Positions 17,031-24,884 of a stretch of DNA of 64,000 nucleotides are shown here, piece by piece. The stretch is taken from positions 1 through 64,000 of the forward strand of contig CANHGM010000004.1 in assembly GCA_947460345.1 (NCBI GenBank). The letters are read 5' to 3'. This DNA is from Bacteroidota bacterium. Lineage in GTDB: Bacteria > Bacteroidota > Bacteroidia > UKL13-3. The position numbers were made by a program, and so were the translations under genes. The notes beneath the pieces were generated by a model that was not told where the DNA came from, ran no database searches, and saw only the letters and a program-made list of their open reading frames with translations. The first letter of the stretch is position 1, and each line of letters opens with the position of its first letter.

Positions 17031-18263
17031 TTATCTTGTTTTTAACGTGATAATGGTGATGATTGCTAACATGATTCCGATAACCCAAAACCTTGATACT
17101 ATTTTACTTTCATGATATCCTTTTTTCTGAAAATGATGATGTAAGGGAGACATTAATAAGATTCTTTTTCCTTCACCATATCTTTTTTTAGTATATTTAA
17201 AATAACTAACTTGTATCATTACACTTAAGTTTTCAGCTAAGAAGATTCCACACAAAACAGGTATTAATAATTCTTTCCTTATTATGATTGCAAAAGCGGC
17301 TATAATTCCACCTAATGCCAAACTTCCTGTGTCTCCCATAAACACTTGTGCCGGATAAGTATTATACCATAAGAAACCTATACATGCTCCAATAAATGCA
17401 CCTGCAAAAATGGTAAGTTCTCCTAAGTGTGGTATATACATGATATTTAGATAGTCTGAAAATATTATATTGCCTGATACATAAGCTAAGATGGCAAGTG
17501 TAAGTCCTATAATACCTGATGTGCCTGCAGCTAAACCATCTATACCATCTGTTATGTTTGCTCCATTTGATACAGCAGTAATAATAAAAATTACTACTAA
17601 TATATATATAAGAACTGCCCATTTTGAACCTAAAATTTTTGCATAGTCAAATTCATTTCCTTTGACAAATGGAATTGTTGTAACAGTAGTTTTAAACTGT
17701 TTTGTATAAACTGTTTTACCTTCAACTTTCTCAGGATAAAGGGTATATTCGGAGTTGTTTTTACCTATACTCTCTGGGACAAAATCCTTAACAACAACAA
17801 CAGGACTATAATGTAAAGTTAATGCAACACCTAATCCGCATATGACTTGTCCAATAATCTTAAACCTTCCAGCTAATCCTTGTTTGTTCTTTTTAAATAC
17901 TTTTATATAGTCATCTAAAAATCCGATCATACCTAACCAAACGGTAACACATAACATCAGAATTATATATATATTCCAAAGTCTTGCAAACAATAATGTA
18001 GGAATTATAATGGCAGCAATTATAATTAATCCGCCCATGGTAGGTGTGCCTTGTTTTGCTTCTTCACCTTCTAATCCAAGTTTTCTTACAGTTTCTGCAA
18101 CTTGTAGTTTGTGAAGCATTTTTATGAGTTTGCCTCCAAAAACTAACGATATTAGTAATGAAACTATAATAGCCATAGATGCTCTAAAAGATATATAGTT
18201 AAATAAACCTGCTCCAGGTATATTAAAATGTTGTTCTAAGTATTGAAATAAGTAGTATAGCAT
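17031..18263 (-). CDS. mraY: Phospho-N-acetylmuramoyl-pentapeptide transferase MraY
   Basis: A 410-residue integral membrane enzyme that moves phospho-MurNAc-pentapeptide from UDP onto undecaprenyl phosphate, making lipid I. Family motifs are present: TPTMGG, the Mg-binding [34 protein letters not shown] and the final [18 protein letters not shown]. Between the fourth and fifth helices there is an extra segment of about 55 residues (about 157-212), which makes it longer than E. coli MraY (360 residues); such an insert is usual in Bacteroidota. It lies 4 nt after murE. Confidence 0.97.
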
Positions 18264-18267
18264 ATAA

Positions 18268-19731
18268 TTATTTTTCTAATAATTGTAATTGTTCGATTAG
18301 AATTGCTTTGTCATCAAATGGGTACTTTATACCTTGAATCTCTTGATAGTTCTCATGTCCCTTACCTGCAATGAGTATAATGTCACCTTTCTGACTCATA
18401 TTAATAGCGGCTTTTATTGCTTCTTTTCTATCAGTAATTTTCAATGATTTTTTATATAAGTGACTTGGAACACCAGCTTGCATTTCTGACAGAATTTCTT
18501 CTGGATTCTCGCTTCTGGGATTGTCTGACGTCAATATTACTTTATCACTATGAGTAGTGGCTATTTCAGCCATTACAGGTCTTTTAAGTTTGTCTCTATC
18601 TCCACCACATCCTACAATAGTTATTAATTGTTCGTTACGTGTTCTTATATCATTTATTGTTTCAATCACGTTTTGAAGAGCATCTGGGGTATGAGCATAA
18701 TCTACAATTCCATGGATGCCACTAACTGACATTATATATTCAAATCTTCCTTTAACACTCTTTAATCCACTTAAATGCTGGATGATTTTATCTCTATCTT
18801 CACCTAATAGTATTGCAGCACTATATACTGCTAGTAAATTATAAGCATTAAATTTACCAATCAATTTAAACCAAACTTCTAAACCATCTATGTTTAATAA
18901 CAAACCATTAAAATCACATTCAATGATTTTGCATTTAAAATCAGATATGTTTTGTAATGCATAAGTGTATTTTACAGCTTTAGTGTTTTGTAACATAACC
19001 AATCCGTTCTTGTCATCTTTGTTTGATAAAGCCCAAGCATCAGCATTTACTTCGTCAAACAATTTTTTCTTAGCTTTTATATACTCTGAAAATGTTTTAT
19101 GATAATCTAAATGGTCATGTGTAATATTGGTAAATATTAATCCTTCAAAACGAATACCTTTAATTCTATTTTGATGTATCGCATGGCTGCTAGCTTCCAT
19201 AAATGCATATGAACAACCTTTGTTCGCCATCTCATCTAACAAGCGATTTAAACTTACAGCGTCAGGTGTGGTATGAGTAGATATTGATATTTCTTCACCT
19301 ATAATGTTTTGAACAGTTGAAACTAATCCACATGTATATCCTAATGATTTGAAAAGATGGTATAATAAACTAGCTGTTGTTGTTTTACCATTAGTGCCTG
19401 TTACAGCAACTATTTTCATTCTTTCACCCGGATGGTTATAAAACTCTGAAGCTAGTATTCCTAAACTTTCAGACGTGTCGTTGCATACTATATATGTTAT
19501 TTCTTTGTTTAAATTTTTAGGTAATGTTGAACAAAGAATTGCCTTGCAACCATTCTGTATTACTTGTTCTATATATATATGCCCGTCGGTTTGTGTTCCG
19601 ATAATGGCTACAAACAAACTATCAACCACAGCTTTTCTAGAATCTATTTCAATAGAATTAATAACTAACTCGTCATTCCCAATTATTTGGAATGATTTAT
19701 TCTCATTTATGAGCTGTTTTAATTTCTTCAT
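18268..19731 (-). CDS. murE: UDP-MurNAc-tripeptide synthetase MurE, meso-diaminopimelate type
   Basis: A 487-residue Mur ligase. The P-loop is TGTNGKTTT (111-119), followed by [15 protein letters not shown] and [10 protein letters not shown]. The DNPR motif at 403-406 is the known marker of MurE enzymes that select meso-diaminopimelate over lysine, so the peptidoglycan is predicted to be of the DAP type. It acts in the cytoplasm on UDP-MurNAc-L-Ala-D-Glu. The start is an ATG, 58 nt downstream of ftsI. No murF follows it here, unlike the proteobacterial order. Confidence 0.97.
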
Positions 19732-19789
19732 TTTATTTTATTCTGAAATATTTGGATGATTTGAATATTATTTTATATATTTTTTGTTT

Positions 19790-21895
19790 TTAATTAATGC
19801 TTGTTCCTAGCGTAACTAATGTCCCTTTATAAATATTAGTTCCTTTTTCAATGCTTTGACTTGATACAATACCTGGTGAATTAAATTGAACTACTATTCC
19901 TATGTTCTCTAGTATATATATTGCATCTTTTAATCGCATCCCTTTTACATCTGGCATTTTGTTTTTTAAGAATGTGTTTTTTTCTCGCATAGTTGATTGG
20001 TTGTTTTGGCTTTTAACTTCTGACCAATCACTATAACTTTTGGTATTTGCCCAAACTTTTTGCCCAAGACTAGTTAAAACAATTTTATAGTCATTTGAAT
20101 ATCCATTTCCTTTAACTGTTTTTAAAGATGTAGGAGTAGAATCAATTACATTTGTTTTAGGGGTGACATTAGTTGCATATACTTTGTCAGCTATTTCTTT
20201 AAAAACAGGGCCTGCTACTACAGAACCATAATACGGACCTTTAGAAGGTTTGAACACAATTACCATACATGTATACTGTGGATTTTCTGCAGGAAAAAAC
20301 CCACAAAAACTAGATTTATAAACTTCGATATATTTTCCGTTTTCAACAATTCTTGCTGTTCCTGTTTTTCCTCCAATTGTATAAACTTCGTTTTTTAAAT
20401 TTCTAGCTGTGCCATGATCTACAACTCCTTTTAGCATTGGCATTACTCTGTCTATTGTTTCTTTTGATACGATTTGTTCATTCAATACTTCTGTTGGAAA
20501 TGTTTTAATCAATTTTCCTGTTTGTTCAATTTTAGTGACAAGTTGCGGTTTTACCATTTTGCCGTGATTGGCTACTGCGTTGTAAAGCATTAAAGTATGC
20601 ATCGGTGTGATTAATACTTCATATCCAATAGACATCCAAGGTAATGTTGGCTCACTCCAACTTTTATCTTTAGGTGTTTTAATTAGGGGTATACCTTCTC
20701 CTGGCAAGCCAATATGGATTGGTTGAGAAAGTTTAAAATCATTAATTAAATGATTGGTGAACTTTGATGGGTTGTTTTGATAATGTTTCCAAACAAATTT
20801 ACTGATACCGACATTAGAAGAAAGCTCAAATGATTTTTGTAAAGTAAGAAGTCCATGTCCTCCATGTTCACTATCTCTCATAATCCTATCAGCAAACTGG
20901 GTTGTTCCATCTTCTGAATTTACTGTTTCTTCATTAGTTACTAGTTTGTCTTCTAGTAATGATAGAACAGATGCAAGTTTGAATGTGCTTCCTGGCTCGG
21001 TTATTTCATTAATTGCATAATTTTTATCTTCAACTAATGTTCCGTCTTCTCTGTGTGTTAAATTAGCAATAGCTTTAATATGGCCTGTTTGAGTTTCCAT
21101 TAAAATTACACATCCATGAGATGCATTTTGAGTTTCTAATGCATGTGTAAGAGCGTTCTCAGCTACATCTTGCATGTTCATATCTATTGTTGTGTATACA
21201 TCATAACCGTTTTGAGGCTCTATATCATTGTCATCAGATAAAGGTACCCAGTTTCCACCCATAATTTTTTGCATCAATCTTTTACCAGGCTTCCCTTTAA
21301 GGTATTCATCAAATCCTGCTTCTATTCCAACAGATTTGCCAGCATCTCTATATAATCCTACAGTTCTAAATGCAAGAATGCCAAATGGAGTTTCTCTTAT
21401 GTTGTTTTCTTCTACCAAAAGTCCACCTTTGTTTTTTCCAAGTCTAAAAATTGGAAGTTTTTTTACAGATTTTAATTGCTCATAATTTAACTTTCTTTGA
21501 AGTCTTAAATATCTATCATGCCTTTTTCTTCCTTTGTTTAATAGTGTTTTATATTCTCTTGAAGAGTAATCATCAAATGTTTGAGAAAGCAGAAATGAAA
21601 GTGAATCTATATTCTTATCCCAAACCTCTTTAGTTAAACCTGCTGCTCTTGTATCAAAATATATATCATATACCGGAACTGAAGTTGAAAGCAAATTTCC
21701 ATCAGCGGCATATATATTCCCTCTTGATGCTTCTATACTCCTGTAGTCAGTTGTGAGACTGTCAGCCATTGCTCTCCATTTATTGCCTTCTTTAAATTGA
21801 ATTTTTGTAGCATAAGCCATTATAACACATGCAAAAGCTACTATAAAAAAGTAACTTAAATATACACGTATTAATATGGTTTGTTTTGGACTCAT
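19790..21895 (-). CDS. ftsI: Septal transpeptidase FtsI (class B penicillin-binding protein) with PASTA domain
   Basis: A 701-residue class B PBP. An N-terminal membrane anchor (about 8-28) is followed by a dimerisation domain and the transpeptidase domain with all three active-site motifs: S303-T-F-K306, S359-S-N361 and K510-T-G512. Ser303 is the acyl-enzyme nucleophile that beta-lactams target. A C-terminal PASTA domain (about 638-701, from MPDVKGMRLKDAI) may bind peptidoglycan stems or beta-lactams. It acts in the periplasm with FtsW at the division site. It sits 3 nt after the FtsL-like gene. Confidence 0.96.
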   Translation of the reverse strand: MSPKQTILIRVYLSYFFIVAFACVIMAYATKIQFKEGNKWRAMADSLTTDYRSIEASRGNIYAADGNLLSTSVPVYDIYFDTRAAGLTKEVWDKNIDSLSFLLSQTFDDYSSREYKTLLNKGRKRHDRYLRLQRKLNYEQLKSVKKLPIFRLGKNKGGLLVEENNIRETPFGILAFRTVGLYRDAGKSVGIEAGFDEYLKGKPGKRLMQKIMGGNWVPLSDDNDIEPQNGYDVYTTIDMNMQDVAENALTHALETQNASHGCVILMETQTGHIKAIANLTHREDGTLVEDKNYAINEITEPGSTFKLASVLSLLEDKLVTNEETVNSEDGTTQFADRIMRDSEHGGHGLLTLQKSFELSSNVGISKFVWKHYQNNPSKFTNHLINDFKLSQPIHIGLPGEGIPLIKTPKDKSWSEPTLPWMSIGYEVLITPMHTLMLYNAVANHGKMVKPQLVTKIEQTGKLIKTFPTEVLNEQIVSKETIDRVMPMLKGVVDHGTARNLKNEVYTIGGKTGTARIVENGKYIEVYKSSFCGFFPAENPQYTCMVIVFKPSKGPYYGSVVAGPVFKEIADKVYATNVTPKTNVIDSTPTSLKTVKGNGYSNDYKIVLTSLGQKVWANTKSYSDWSEVKSQNNQSTMREKNTFLKNKMPDVKGMRLKDAIYILENIGIVVQFNSPGIVSSQSIEKGTNIYKGTLVTLGTSIN

Positions 21896-21898
21896 TTT

Positions 21899-22228
21899 TT
21901 ATTTTTCTGATGTTGTTCCATATATGATTTTAACCGGAGGTTTACCTATTGGTTTTAGTCCAGTTCCATCGAGTCTTTTAAAAACCTCTGTTTGTTTGCT
22001 GTTGCTCATTAAGTCTTTTTTTATGCTTATATATTCGCTTCTAAGTTCTTTTATATGTGTCATGAGTTTGCCTGATTTGACCACTACCTTATTTGCATAG
22101 TGTGCATTGGCTATATAAAACATGCCAATTAGAAATAAATAAAAAACAAAAGGCAAAAGCTTGTTTATACTCTTTGTATTTATAAAGAAATCAAATTCAG
22201 ATATTTTTACTAATGGACTTTTGCTCAT
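21899..22228 (-). CDS. FtsL-like cell division protein
   Basis: A 109-residue bitopic protein. A cytoplasmic N-terminal 24 residues are followed by one membrane helix (about LLPFVFYLFLIGMFYIANAH) and a periplasmic helical part of the coiled-coil type (MTHIKELRSEYISIKKDLM). Size, topology and position between rsmH and ftsI match the Bacteroidota FtsL-like protein, the partner of FtsI and FtsW in septal synthesis. Sequence similarity in FtsL is low, so the call rests mainly on context. It lies 1 nt after rsmH. Confidence 0.85.
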   Translation of the reverse strand: MSKSPLVKISEFDFFINTKSINKLLPFVFYLFLIGMFYIANAHYANKVVVKSGKLMTHIKELRSEYISIKKDLMSNSKQTEVFKRLDGTGLKPIGKPPVKIIYGTTSEK

Positions 22229-22229
22229 A

Positions 22230-23138
22230 TTATATTTTTTCTGCTACCCTTAGTCTTGCACTACGAGCCCTTGAATTTGATTTGATTTCTTCTTCACTTG
22301 CTGGGGTGTCTTTCCCTATTGCTTTAAAAGGTTTAACTGAATTGCCATATAAGTCTTTCTCAATTTCACCTTCAATGCTTCCTTTTATGATTAAATTTTT
22401 AACAAGTCTATCTTCTAAACTATGATAACTAAGCACGACCAATCTACCAGTAGGTTTTAAGCAATCAATACATTGATTTAAGAAATGTTTAAGTGAATTT
22501 ATTTCATCATTTACTTCAATTCTTAATGCTTGAAATAATCTACTATAAAAACTATACTCATCATTTTTGGGAGCAAATGGTTTGATGATGTTTAATAAAT
22601 CGTTTATGGTTTTAAAAGGGCTAAAAGCTGCTTGATTGGATATGGCAATTGATATCTTATATGATTGGTTTATTTCGCCATAATTTTTTAAAACCTCATT
22701 GATTTGAGTTTGACTATATTCATTTAAAAGTGATGCTGCAGATAGTTTTTGTTCTCTGTCCATTCTCATATCTAATTCAGCATCGAAACGATAGCTAAAC
22801 CCTCTTTCGCCTTCATTTAATTGAAAGCTACTTACTCCAAGATCTGCTAAAATTCCATCAACTTTTTCAGCATTTAAATAAGTTAAATAGTTTTTCATAA
22901 ATCTATAATTATGATGAACTATAATTAATCTAGGATCGTCGATTAAATTTTGTTGGGCATCGCTGTCTCTATCAAAAGCAATCAGTTTTCCTTTTGAACT
23001 TAATTTGTTTAAGATGAGTTTGCTATGGCCTCCGCCGCCAAATGTAACATCAACATATACCCCATCAGGATTTATATTGAGTCCATCTATACATTGATGG
23101 GCCATCACAGGTAAATGATATACTTGCTCTGTAGTCAT
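22230..23138 (-). CDS. rsmH: 16S rRNA (cytosine(1402)-N(4))-methyltransferase RsmH
   Basis: A 302-residue methyltransferase. The S-adenosylmethionine-binding loop is VDVTFGGGGHSKLIL (about 29-43). Further family motifs are ADLGVSSFQLNEGERGFSYRFDAELDMRMD in the middle and SYHSLEDRLVKN toward the C-terminus. It modifies C1402 of 16S rRNA near the P site. Its place directly after mraZ (1 nt gap) is the standard dcw start. Confidence 0.97.
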   Translation of the reverse strand: MTTEQVYHLPVMAHQCIDGLNINPDGVYVDVTFGGGGHSKLILNKLSSKGKLIAFDRDSDAQQNLIDDPRLIIVHHNYRFMKNYLTYLNAEKVDGILADLGVSSFQLNEGERGFSYRFDAELDMRMDREQKLSAASLLNEYSQTQINEVLKNYGEINQSYKISIAISNQAAFSPFKTINDLLNIIKPFAPKNDEYSFYSRLFQALRIEVNDEINSLKHFLNQCIDCLKPTGRLVVLSYHSLEDRLVKNLIIKGSIEGEIEKDLYGNSVKPFKAIGKDTPASEEEIKSNSRARSARLRVAEKI

Positions 23139-23612
23139 TTATATCGTACCTTCTGGTCTGTGAGGCTTGTTTTTACCCATTACTTGCTCAGCTAAACTGG
23201 CAAATTCGTCTGGTGTTAAGTTGAGCTCTTGCTCATAAACTTTTGAACTCCAGATTTCAATACGGTTGCTATATGCAAACAGTACCACGTCATTATGAAT
23301 CTCAGCATATTCTTGTAGTTTTTTAGGAAGTAAAATTCTATCTGAATTGTCAATACTAATTTCTTGTGCCCCGTTGTTAAAAACCCTAATAAATTGACGA
23401 TCTTTTCTATCAAATAAGTTTAACGCTTCTAACTTGTCGGTTTCTTTATCCCATTCTTTTTTGGTAAATAAAGTCAAGCATTTATCGAAACCACGATTTA
23501 TCACGAGCACCTCTTGTGCATCAGGCGGTAATTGCTTCTTAAGCTTTGCAGGAATGACTAACCTGCCTTTACCGTCAATTTTACATTCGTATTCGCCTAT
23601 AAATTGTGACAT
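23139..23612 (-). CDS. mraZ: Transcriptional regulator MraZ
   Basis: A 157-residue protein with two AbrB-like swapped-hairpin halves: MSQFIGEYECKIDGKGRLVIPAKLK at the N-terminus and NNGAQEISIDNSDRILLPKKLQEYA in the second half. In E. coli MraZ is a ring-shaped DNA-binding protein that represses its own dcw operon by contacting TGGGA repeats. Here two such repeats lie 43-57 bp upstream of its ATG, so autoregulation is expected. It is the first gene of the cluster. Confidence 0.96.
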   Translation of the reverse strand: MSQFIGEYECKIDGKGRLVIPAKLKKQLPPDAQEVLVINRGFDKCLTLFTKKEWDKETDKLEALNLFDRKDRQFIRVFNNGAQEISIDNSDRILLPKKLQEYAEIHNDVVLFAYSNRIEIWSSKVYEQELNLTPDEFASLAEQVMGKNKPHRPEGTI

Positions 23613-23636: not shown

Positions 23637-23644
23637 CGAATGTA
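23637..23644 (-). promoter_or_regulatory. Candidate -7 element of the mra operon promoter
   Basis: On the minus strand this reads TACATTCG, one mismatch from TAnnTTTG, about 25 nt upstream of the mraZ ATG. No clear TTG lies at the expected distance. It sits 11 bp downstream of the proximal TGGGA pair, so MraZ bound there would cover the space where the polymerase binds. Confidence 0.35.
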
Positions 23645-23654
23645 AATCAACTTT

Positions 23655-23669
23655 TCCCATTTTCTCCCA
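23655..23669 (-). promoter_or_regulatory. MraZ-type operator: two TGGGA repeats with 5-nt gap
   Basis: On the minus strand, TGGGA (23669-23665) and TGGGA (23659-23655) stand in direct repeat with a gap of 5 nt, giving a 10-bp period so both face the same side of the helix. This matches the known MraZ recognition pattern. The position just upstream of mraZ and of its -7-like element supports autoregulation. Confidence 0.65.
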
Positions 23670-23681
23670 CTTTTTTAAAAT

Positions 23682-23690
23682 TGTGGATAA
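23682..23690 (-). promoter_or_regulatory. Perfect DnaA box beside the MraZ operator
   Basis: The minus strand reads TTATCCACA, the full DnaA-box consensus, 12 bp from the TGGGA pair. Only one copy is visible here, so it is not an origin. It could be a DnaA regulatory site for the mra operon, or chance in AT-rich DNA. Confidence 0.4.
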
Positions 23691-23753
23691 ATTTACCTAT
23701 TTATTTTAATTTTAATTAATTTAAAATGCATAAAATCAATTAAATAAATATAG

Positions 23754-23768
23754 TGGGAATTTGTGGGA
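23754..23768 (+). promoter_or_regulatory. Second MraZ-type operator, opposite orientation
   Basis: On the plus strand, TGGGA (23754-23758) and TGGGA (23764-23768) again have a 5-nt gap. This pair points toward the isomerase gene, about 100 bp from the mraZ-proximal pair and also about 100 bp upstream of the isomerase -7 element. It may serve looping between pairs or control of the divergent gene. Confidence 0.5.
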
Positions 23769-23869: not shown

Positions 23870-23877
23870 TAACTTTG
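23870..23877 (+). promoter_or_regulatory. -7 promoter element of the isomerase gene
   Basis: TAACTTTG followed by CA, a full match to TAnnTTTG, 17 nt upstream of the ATG. No TTG is found 19-21 nt further upstream, so the -33 element is weak or absent. The mRNA leader would be very short. Confidence 0.5.
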
Positions 23878-23894
23878 CAAACAAAAAAATATAT

Positions 23895-24884
23895 ATGAGT
23901 AACAATCAACTTCAATACGACGCACTTTCAAAGTTTAGCTATCAAATTCGTTTTGCTTTAGAAAATTTTACTTCTCACGGTATTGATATTTCAAATTATA
24001 ATAATATAGTTATAGGTGGACTTGGTGGTTCGGGTATAGGTGGAAGTATTGTGAAAGGTTTTATGACTGATAAAATCAAGCTTCCGATAGAAGTTATTTC
24101 TGATTATCATCTGCCGGCATATGCAGATCATAAAACCATCCTTGTTTTAGGTTCTTATTCAGGAAATACAGAAGAAACATTAACGATGTTTGAATTAGGT
24201 AAACTGGCTCAATGCAAGATATTGGTTTTAACTTCTGGTGGTAAATTAAAAGAGCTTGCGGAAAAAGAGGGTCTTAAAATATACCCAATTGAAGGCGGTT
24301 TCCAACCGAGAATGGCATTAGGCTATTCTTTAACTTATTTGTTGTTGATTTTTGGAGAATTTGTTGATATAAATTATATAGAAGATTTAAATACAATTGC
24401 TTCAAGCCTCGATCATTATGATGATTATTTGATAGCCGCTGAAGATATATATAAATCTACACTTAAGCATTTAGACAAAAAAACTGTTATAGTTACTGAT
24501 GCAGGTTTTGAAGCGGTTGGGATTAGGTTTGCTCAACAAATTCAAGAAAATGCAAAGGCAGAAGCTTTTGTATGCGTAGTTCCTGAAGCTAATCATAATG
24601 TTATTGAAAGTTATTATGGCCAAGTGCCTTCAATCTTTGTTTTTATTCATGCCGATACAAATGAAAGAGTTTCTCAGAGATTCGAATTTTTAAGGTCTAT
24701 GTTAGAAGTTGAAAATAATAAAATTATTGATATTCATGTTGAAGAATATAGCGTACATACTATATATGAAATTATATATAGGTTAGATTATTATTCTCTT
24801 TTAGTAGCAGATTATAAAGGTGTTGACGCATTAAATGTGCCTAACATTATGGAGTTAAAAGGTTTCTTAGATGATGTAAAATAA
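23895..24884 (+). CDS. Bifunctional phosphoglucose/phosphomannose isomerase
   Basis: A 329-residue protein with two SIS (sugar isomerase) domains. The first holds GGLGGSGIGGSIVKGF (about 42-57) and the phosphosugar loop GSYSGNTEETL. The C-terminal part has EANHNVIESY, which carries the conserved His near the active site. The family interconverts glucose 6-phosphate or mannose 6-phosphate with fructose 6-phosphate. Length is typical. The ATG follows AAAAAAATATAT. It is divergent from the mra operon across a 282-bp region carrying two TGGGA pairs. The ABC exporter gene starts 14 nt downstream and is probably in the same transcript. Confidence 0.92.
   Translation: MSNNQLQYDALSKFSYQIRFALENFTSHGIDISNYNNIVIGGLGGSGIGGSIVKGFMTDKIKLPIEVISDYHLPAYADHKTILVLGSYSGNTEETLTMFELGKLAQCKILVLTSGGKLKELAEKEGLKIYPIEGGFQPRMALGYSLTYLLLIFGEFVDINYIEDLNTIASSLDHYDDYLIAAEDIYKSTLKHLDKKTVIVTDAGFEAVGIRFAQQIQENAKAEAFVCVVPEANHNVIESYYGQVPSIFVFIHADTNERVSQRFEFLRSMLEVENNKIIDIHVEEYSVHTIYEIIYRLDYYSLLVADYKGVDALNVPNIMELKGFLDDVK

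Follow-up and report, generated by a model that had tools for sequence, protein, structure and literature searches.

The window analysed here, meaning the whole 64,000-nucleotide stretch of DNA, carries two oppositely oriented arrays of short repeats in the gap between mraZ and a divergent isomerase gene. The locus raises the question of what the second, inverted array does: whether it would let MraZ control the isomerase gene, or whether it would act together with the first array on the mraZ promoter. The features that bear on this question are as follows.

17031-23138, minus strand: rest of the mraZ operon in the window (rsmH, ftsL-like, ftsI, murE, mraY)
17031-18263, minus strand: mraY, named from its translation
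18268-19731, minus strand: murE, named from its translation
19790-21895, minus strand: ftsI, named from its translation
21899-22228, minus strand: ftsL-like gene, with profile matches
22230-23138, minus strand: rsmH, with profile matches (Pfam/TIGRFAM-type families)
23139-23612, minus strand: mraZ, 157 aa, first gene of the division and cell-wall cluster
23637-23644, minus strand: predicted -7 element of mraZ, TACATTCG, one mismatch to the consensus TAnnTTTG
23655-23670, minus strand: proximal putative MraZ array, GTGGGAGAAAATGGGA, two units at a 10-bp period; the aligned class consensus has GTGGTAAAAA three times over
23671-23752, no strand: spacer between the arrays and proposed loop DNA, 82 bp, AT-rich, holding a DnaA box
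23677-23680, minus strand: slot of the degenerate first proximal unit, GTGG in most relatives and lost in the window
23682-23690, minus strand: perfect DnaA box, TTATCCACA, adjoining the proximal array, one of 7 in the genome
23753-23768, plus strand: distal putative MraZ array, GTGGGAATTTGTGGGA, in inverted orientation; an inverted array is conserved in 23 of 44 families
23870-23877, plus strand: predicted -7 element of the isomerase gene, TAACTTTG, 102 bp past the distal array
23895-24884, plus strand: bifunctional phosphoglucose/phosphomannose isomerase (PF10432, TIGR02128), divergent from mraZ

The mraZ locus and its two arrays

The product of mraZ matches PF02381 (E=1.1e-27) and scores 116.8 bits against TIGR00242, over the family cut-off, and both of its DXXXR motifs are intact (D13-R17 and D88-R92, residues that are invariant in the alignment). 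A single-chain model of this MraZ was of low confidence (mean pLDDT 51.6) and served only to retrieve the titles of related entries. The array upstream of mraZ has the properties of known MraZ operators, consisting of direct repeats with a GTG(G/T) core and a 10-bp period; it overlaps the predicted mraZ promoter, and the adjacent gene encodes an MraZ with DXXXR motifs.

The preliminary description had placed pairs of the form TGGGA-N5-TGGGA at 23655-23669 on the minus strand and at 23754-23768 on the plus strand, and both are present at these coordinates, where they read TGGGAGAAAATGGGA and TGGGAATTTGTGGGA, respectively. The pattern occurs twice in the 64-kb window, against 0.07 occurrences expected from dinucleotide shuffling, with both copies falling in the 282-bp gap between mraZ and the isomerase gene. 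Three exact matches were found in the 3.0-Mb genome, among which the pairs in the mraZ gap are the only two that are intergenic; the third (C53:1257) lies inside a reading frame resembling a secreted protease. When one mismatch was allowed the genome yielded 79 matches, compared with 52 for the reversed pattern, which is near background. A genome-wide MraZ regulon defined by TGGGA-N5-TGGGA was considered and rejected, since there is no other intergenic exact site. A G precedes each pair, giving the full units GTGGGAGAAAATGGGA (23655-23670, minus strand) and GTGGGAATTTGTGGGA (23753-23768, plus strand), which stand 99 bp apart from start to start with 82 bp in between.

Occurrence of both arrays across Bacteroidia

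An MraZ was identified in 86 of the 97 relatives and, class-wide, in 354 of 395 genomes. Upstream sequence of mraZ was read in 216 loci, and 172 of these, picked irrespective of motif and drawn from 44 families, were usable. The proximal array is nearly universal in the class loci, being composed of GTGG units with the consensus GTGGTAAAAA, usually three in number. TAnnTTT, or in its longer form TAnnTTTG, is the -7 promoter element of Bacteroidota, and in 62 of 105 genera TAnnTTT follows the last GTGG by 15-16 bp. The window matches this layout, with a degenerate first unit, two further units in place, and TACATTCG 16 bp from the start of the last of them; the slot of the degenerate unit falls 10 bp on the upstream side of the first GTGG, beside the DnaA-like box, as in relatives. 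The earlier assignment of the proximal pair to the mra operon is supported, and the pair sits at the class-consensus place and ends 16 bp before the -7 element. The comparison with related genomes, which the preliminary description had called for, divides its claim about the repeats. Exact TGGGA was rejected as the conserved signal, for relatives carry GTGG with other following bases and even the closest relatives do not conserve TGGGA itself; the GTGG unit at a 10-bp period and the architecture of two arrays are conserved. Judged by sequence comparison, the exact letters are lineage-specific and the two-array architecture is not.

The distal array was looked for in 84 upstream regions. CCAC-N6-CCAC was present between -280 and -100 in 31 of the 84 regions as opposed to 1 of 84 between -600 and -420; other CCAC spacings between -280 and -100 occurred in 0 to 6 of the 84 sequences, and same-strand GTGG-N6-GTGG occurred there in none of the 84. 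A scoring matrix built from proximal units alone found an opposite-strand array in 72 of the 172 regions (43 genera, 23 of 44 families) and a same-strand array in only 1. The distal array has the same period as the proximal array, exactly 10 bp, and the 6-base spacer between its units has an A-tract consensus identical to that of the proximal spacer; arrays hold 2 to 4 units. Furthermore, at +4 and +5 after GTGG the proximal and distal letters agree more often than in shuffled data, with p 0.009 and <0.0002, respectively, by genus and p 0.01 and 0.02 by family. On the most economical view a single protein, MraZ, would read both arrays, and the region has in this respect what a looping pair requires, namely two putative sites for the same protein, which share a motif to the extent that a matrix made from one array finds the other.

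A pattern scan of the class recovered the layout in 54 of 395 genomes, compared with 5 for the reversed control. The layout is most densely documented in family f19, where it was seen in 184 of 200 genomes, in 142 of the 146 good ones, and in 24 of 24 genera; a search for further genomes with the pattern in families f3 and f27 gained none. Elsewhere in the phylum the pattern is rare (16 of 395 genomes, some of these 16 being chance matches, and 2 for the reversed control). It precedes mraZ in at least one lineage there, f90, where five species have it at a distance of 104 bp; further cases outside the class have 76-91 bp. When 84,980 species were scanned for a version of the pattern that included TTATCCACA, 17 stretches came back, each immediately upstream of mraZ. 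No recognisable distal array is present in about half of the families, so that it is dispensable in some lineages. Family f33 (L010, L129, L135 and others, with many sampled genera) has no distal array by either the strict pattern or the matrix cut-off, and at least one locus in it retains a single TTTACCAC half-site; the distal array was possibly lost secondarily in this family.

Array spacing and explanations of the distal array

The distance between the arrays, counted between the distal array and the first proximal slot, is quantised, with values at about 61, 71, 82, 94, 105 and 116 bp. Family-level distances are 61, 71-72, 82-84, 92-95, 98, 100, 114-118, 135 and 191 bp, and they are best fitted by a period of 10.8-11.2 bp, with R about 0.7. 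According to the set and the null used, the latter being either uniform or made of values jittered by 6 bp, p ranges from <0.0005 to 0.008; these p-values take family clusters as independent, and shared ancestry could inflate their significance. A period of 10, the register of the repeats, gives an R of only 0.3-0.4. The distances in f19 are 102-110 bp among the loci listed. A few out-of-phase distances occur as well (98, 86 and 90 bp, and about 200-211 bp in family f45), and other classes of the phylum show a mixture of values (104, 80, 89, 76 and 91 bp). With families taken as independent units, the spacing is held to whole helical turns, as looping pairs demand.

Several side observations concern the spacer. 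Several genomes of one genus (g3 of family f1, L047-L062) keep the distal array at exactly 191 bp, which is far past the usual range and yet near a whole number of turns. A mid-spacer motif like TGTAACCTT or TGAAACCTT recurs in families f19 and f10. A perfect TAnnTTTG is found in the spacer of some families (L005, L076, L116, L168, L216 and L219 among them), with 9 in the direction of mraZ against 2.9 expected and 0 in reverse, and it is possible that this is a second mraZ promoter inside the proposed loop. Such a second -7 element was rejected as the source of the phasing because its positions vary.

The presence of the same paired sites across many Bacteroidia, roughly whole turns apart, suggests that MraZ folds this DNA into a small loop. 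In the mechanism that we propose, the proximal GTGG array would cover the -33 region of the mraZ promoter while the distal inverted array would lie about 7 to 11 helical turns upstream; an MraZ oligomer, which is a ring in studied family members, would most likely grip both arrays at once and close a small loop, and the loop would raise the local concentration of MraZ at the promoter and tighten mra/dcw autorepression. The region is, in our judgment, probably a bipartite, loop-forming MraZ operator that serves to tighten autorepression of the mra/dcw operon. Looping had been raised in the preliminary description, and the exclusive inversion of the distal array (72 against 1) together with helical phasing across families lends it strong support. 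A loop closed by a protein calls for arrays of this kind, always inverted and whole turns apart, which is why we infer that an MraZ oligomer would hold both. We likewise infer that MraZ binds the two arrays, that one oligomer or two joined rings bridge them, and that the outcome is repressive. Simple wrapping of the DNA round one ring is disfavoured because wrapping asks for direct repeats and the arrays are strictly inverted; this strict inversion is compatible with DNA that doubles back like a hairpin, or with a pair of joined rings.

The arrays could also both bind MraZ in the absence of looping, in which case the distal array would be an auxiliary or decoy site, or would carry a separate ring that alters local DNA structure. 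That half of the families manage without a distal array would sit well with such a role, which nevertheless leaves both the exclusively inverted orientation and the helical phasing unexplained, and we regard it as unlikely. The quantised distances might instead have arisen through gain and loss of 10-bp units at one ancestral spacing, free of any helical constraint, as the variation of arrays between 2 and 4 units and the existence of some differences near 10 (82-83 versus 92 in family f10) would allow. However, the phasing survives when distances are anchored on the DnaA-like landmark, the best period is near 11 while period 10 yields only the low R given above, and the steps from 71 to 82 (f3) and from 82 to 117 (f27) do not come in tens. 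If distances were unphased to begin with, 10-bp changes of register could not bring them into phase, though combined with shared descent they could mimic part of the phasing; as an account of the whole pattern we find unit gain and loss scarcely credible.

The remaining alternative is that the distal array is an MraZ operator of the divergent gene, in this locus the isomerase gene, and so joins division to sugar-phosphate supply, as the preliminary description had proposed. The upstream neighbour is often divergent and the distal array faces it, but the -7 element of the isomerase gene, at an offset of 107 from the outer GTGG, is 102 bp from the distal array and hence too far for direct occlusion, and across loci a divergent -7 element lies anywhere from 6 to 150 bp from the distal array whereas the proximal array keeps to 15-16 bp from the mraZ -7 element. 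Neighbours also differ by lineage and belong to many unrelated families. An isomerase gene beside mraZ had no match in any other fetched locus; by sequence look, the other upstream neighbours comprise an alpha/beta-hydrolase-like family in 13 loci from 13 families, as well as ABC transporters, an MscL-like channel and lipoproteins. Moreover, the distal array is kept behind codirectional upstream genes in G242 (a Cys/Met PLP enzyme, PF01053) and G398 (an anticodon-binding domain of the glutamyl-tRNA synthetase type, PF19269), the two Pfam-checked loci on which the codirectional evidence rests. The site is neither conserved with the isomerase gene nor held at a fixed place relative to its promoter. 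Because, among the loci fetched, the isomerase gene adjoins mraZ only in the window, the distances are scattered and codirectional cases exist, control of the isomerase gene by MraZ is unsupported and very unlikely, and the same observations favour a bipartite, loop-forming operator.

The DnaA-box-like element and known MraZ operators

The word TTATCCACA is strongly avoided in the genome, with 7 occurrences versus 54 for the reversed word. The position that it occupies beside the proximal array is kept as TTWTNNACA in 112 of the 172 loci, 10-13 bp before the first unit, the commonest forms being TTTTCAACA, TTATCAACA and TTTTCCACA; outside the window's own family the commonest forms differ from the standard DnaA box at one base. 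TTWTCCACA is concentrated at this position, which accounts for 23 of its 35 occurrences over 97 genera, compared with 2 for the reversed word. The DnaA-box-like site by the proximal array is, as a putative DnaA site, the second conserved element of the region.

Further boxes in the genome lie at L274:2035 and at L278:2032 and 2155. One perfect box stands just before a gene with a gyrB-like start and one before an HU-like gene with a second box, TTATGCACA, nearby, both gene names being taken from sequences; that the boxes are few and placed before such genes suggests a small DnaA regulon. In f19 (L205, L211, L216 and L217) a further TTWTCCACA-like box is often seen immediately beyond the distal array, and both arrays may be flanked by DnaA-like sites. 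We raise tentatively, as conceivable though doubtful, the further idea that an MraZ-closed loop holding a DnaA box controls the division operon across Bacteroidia, and that DnaA, by binding within the loop or at its edge, opens or stabilises it and so ties expression of the division genes to the replication cycle.

MraZ has been described elsewhere as repressing its own operon from such repeats and as forming rings, including an octameric ring in a Mollicute MraZ (PMC7761207), and the published Mollicutes core is (AAAGTGK-N3)x3 (PMC5282649). The class consensus (AAA)GTGG fits this core (PMC5282649; PMC7761207), and the mraZ repeats described for Mollicutes, E. coli and Burkholderia are likewise direct repeats with a GTG core and a 10-bp period at the mraZ promoter. 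In the available portions of those accounts one array is described, whereas the Bacteroidia have a second, inverted array 60-120 bp upstream and in phase with the first. The Mycoplasma genitalium MraZ-promoter complexes (PDB 9r4j, 9sz7) contain a protein of the same family as the MraZ of the window; their titles refer to MraZ on its promoter and on a four-box promoter, and in these titles neither a second inverted array nor a loop is mentioned. Among the open-access papers searched, which cover the literature in part and exclude preprints, none was found to describe either a MraZ loop or a second MraZ array in inverted orientation. A further parallel is with the short loops of Lac repressor, which also combine two sites, one oligomeric regulator and helical phasing. 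Models of Lac repressor loops in vivo give 10.95-11.60 bp per turn (PMC1762422), and the best array period of 10.8-11.2 bp matches this fitted in-vivo helical repeat (PMC1762422). The systems differ in the protein involved, in that the MraZ sites are arrays of 10-bp units, and in that MraZ represses its own operon.

Few bacterial regulators are as widely conserved as MraZ, and a mirrored, phased second array retained in much of the Bacteroidia would give its ring a task, that of bridging two DNA segments. The proposed loop is open to study with spacer mutants in cultivable relatives. The adjoining DnaA-box-like site suggests one concrete way in which Bacteroidia might coordinate replication with division genes.
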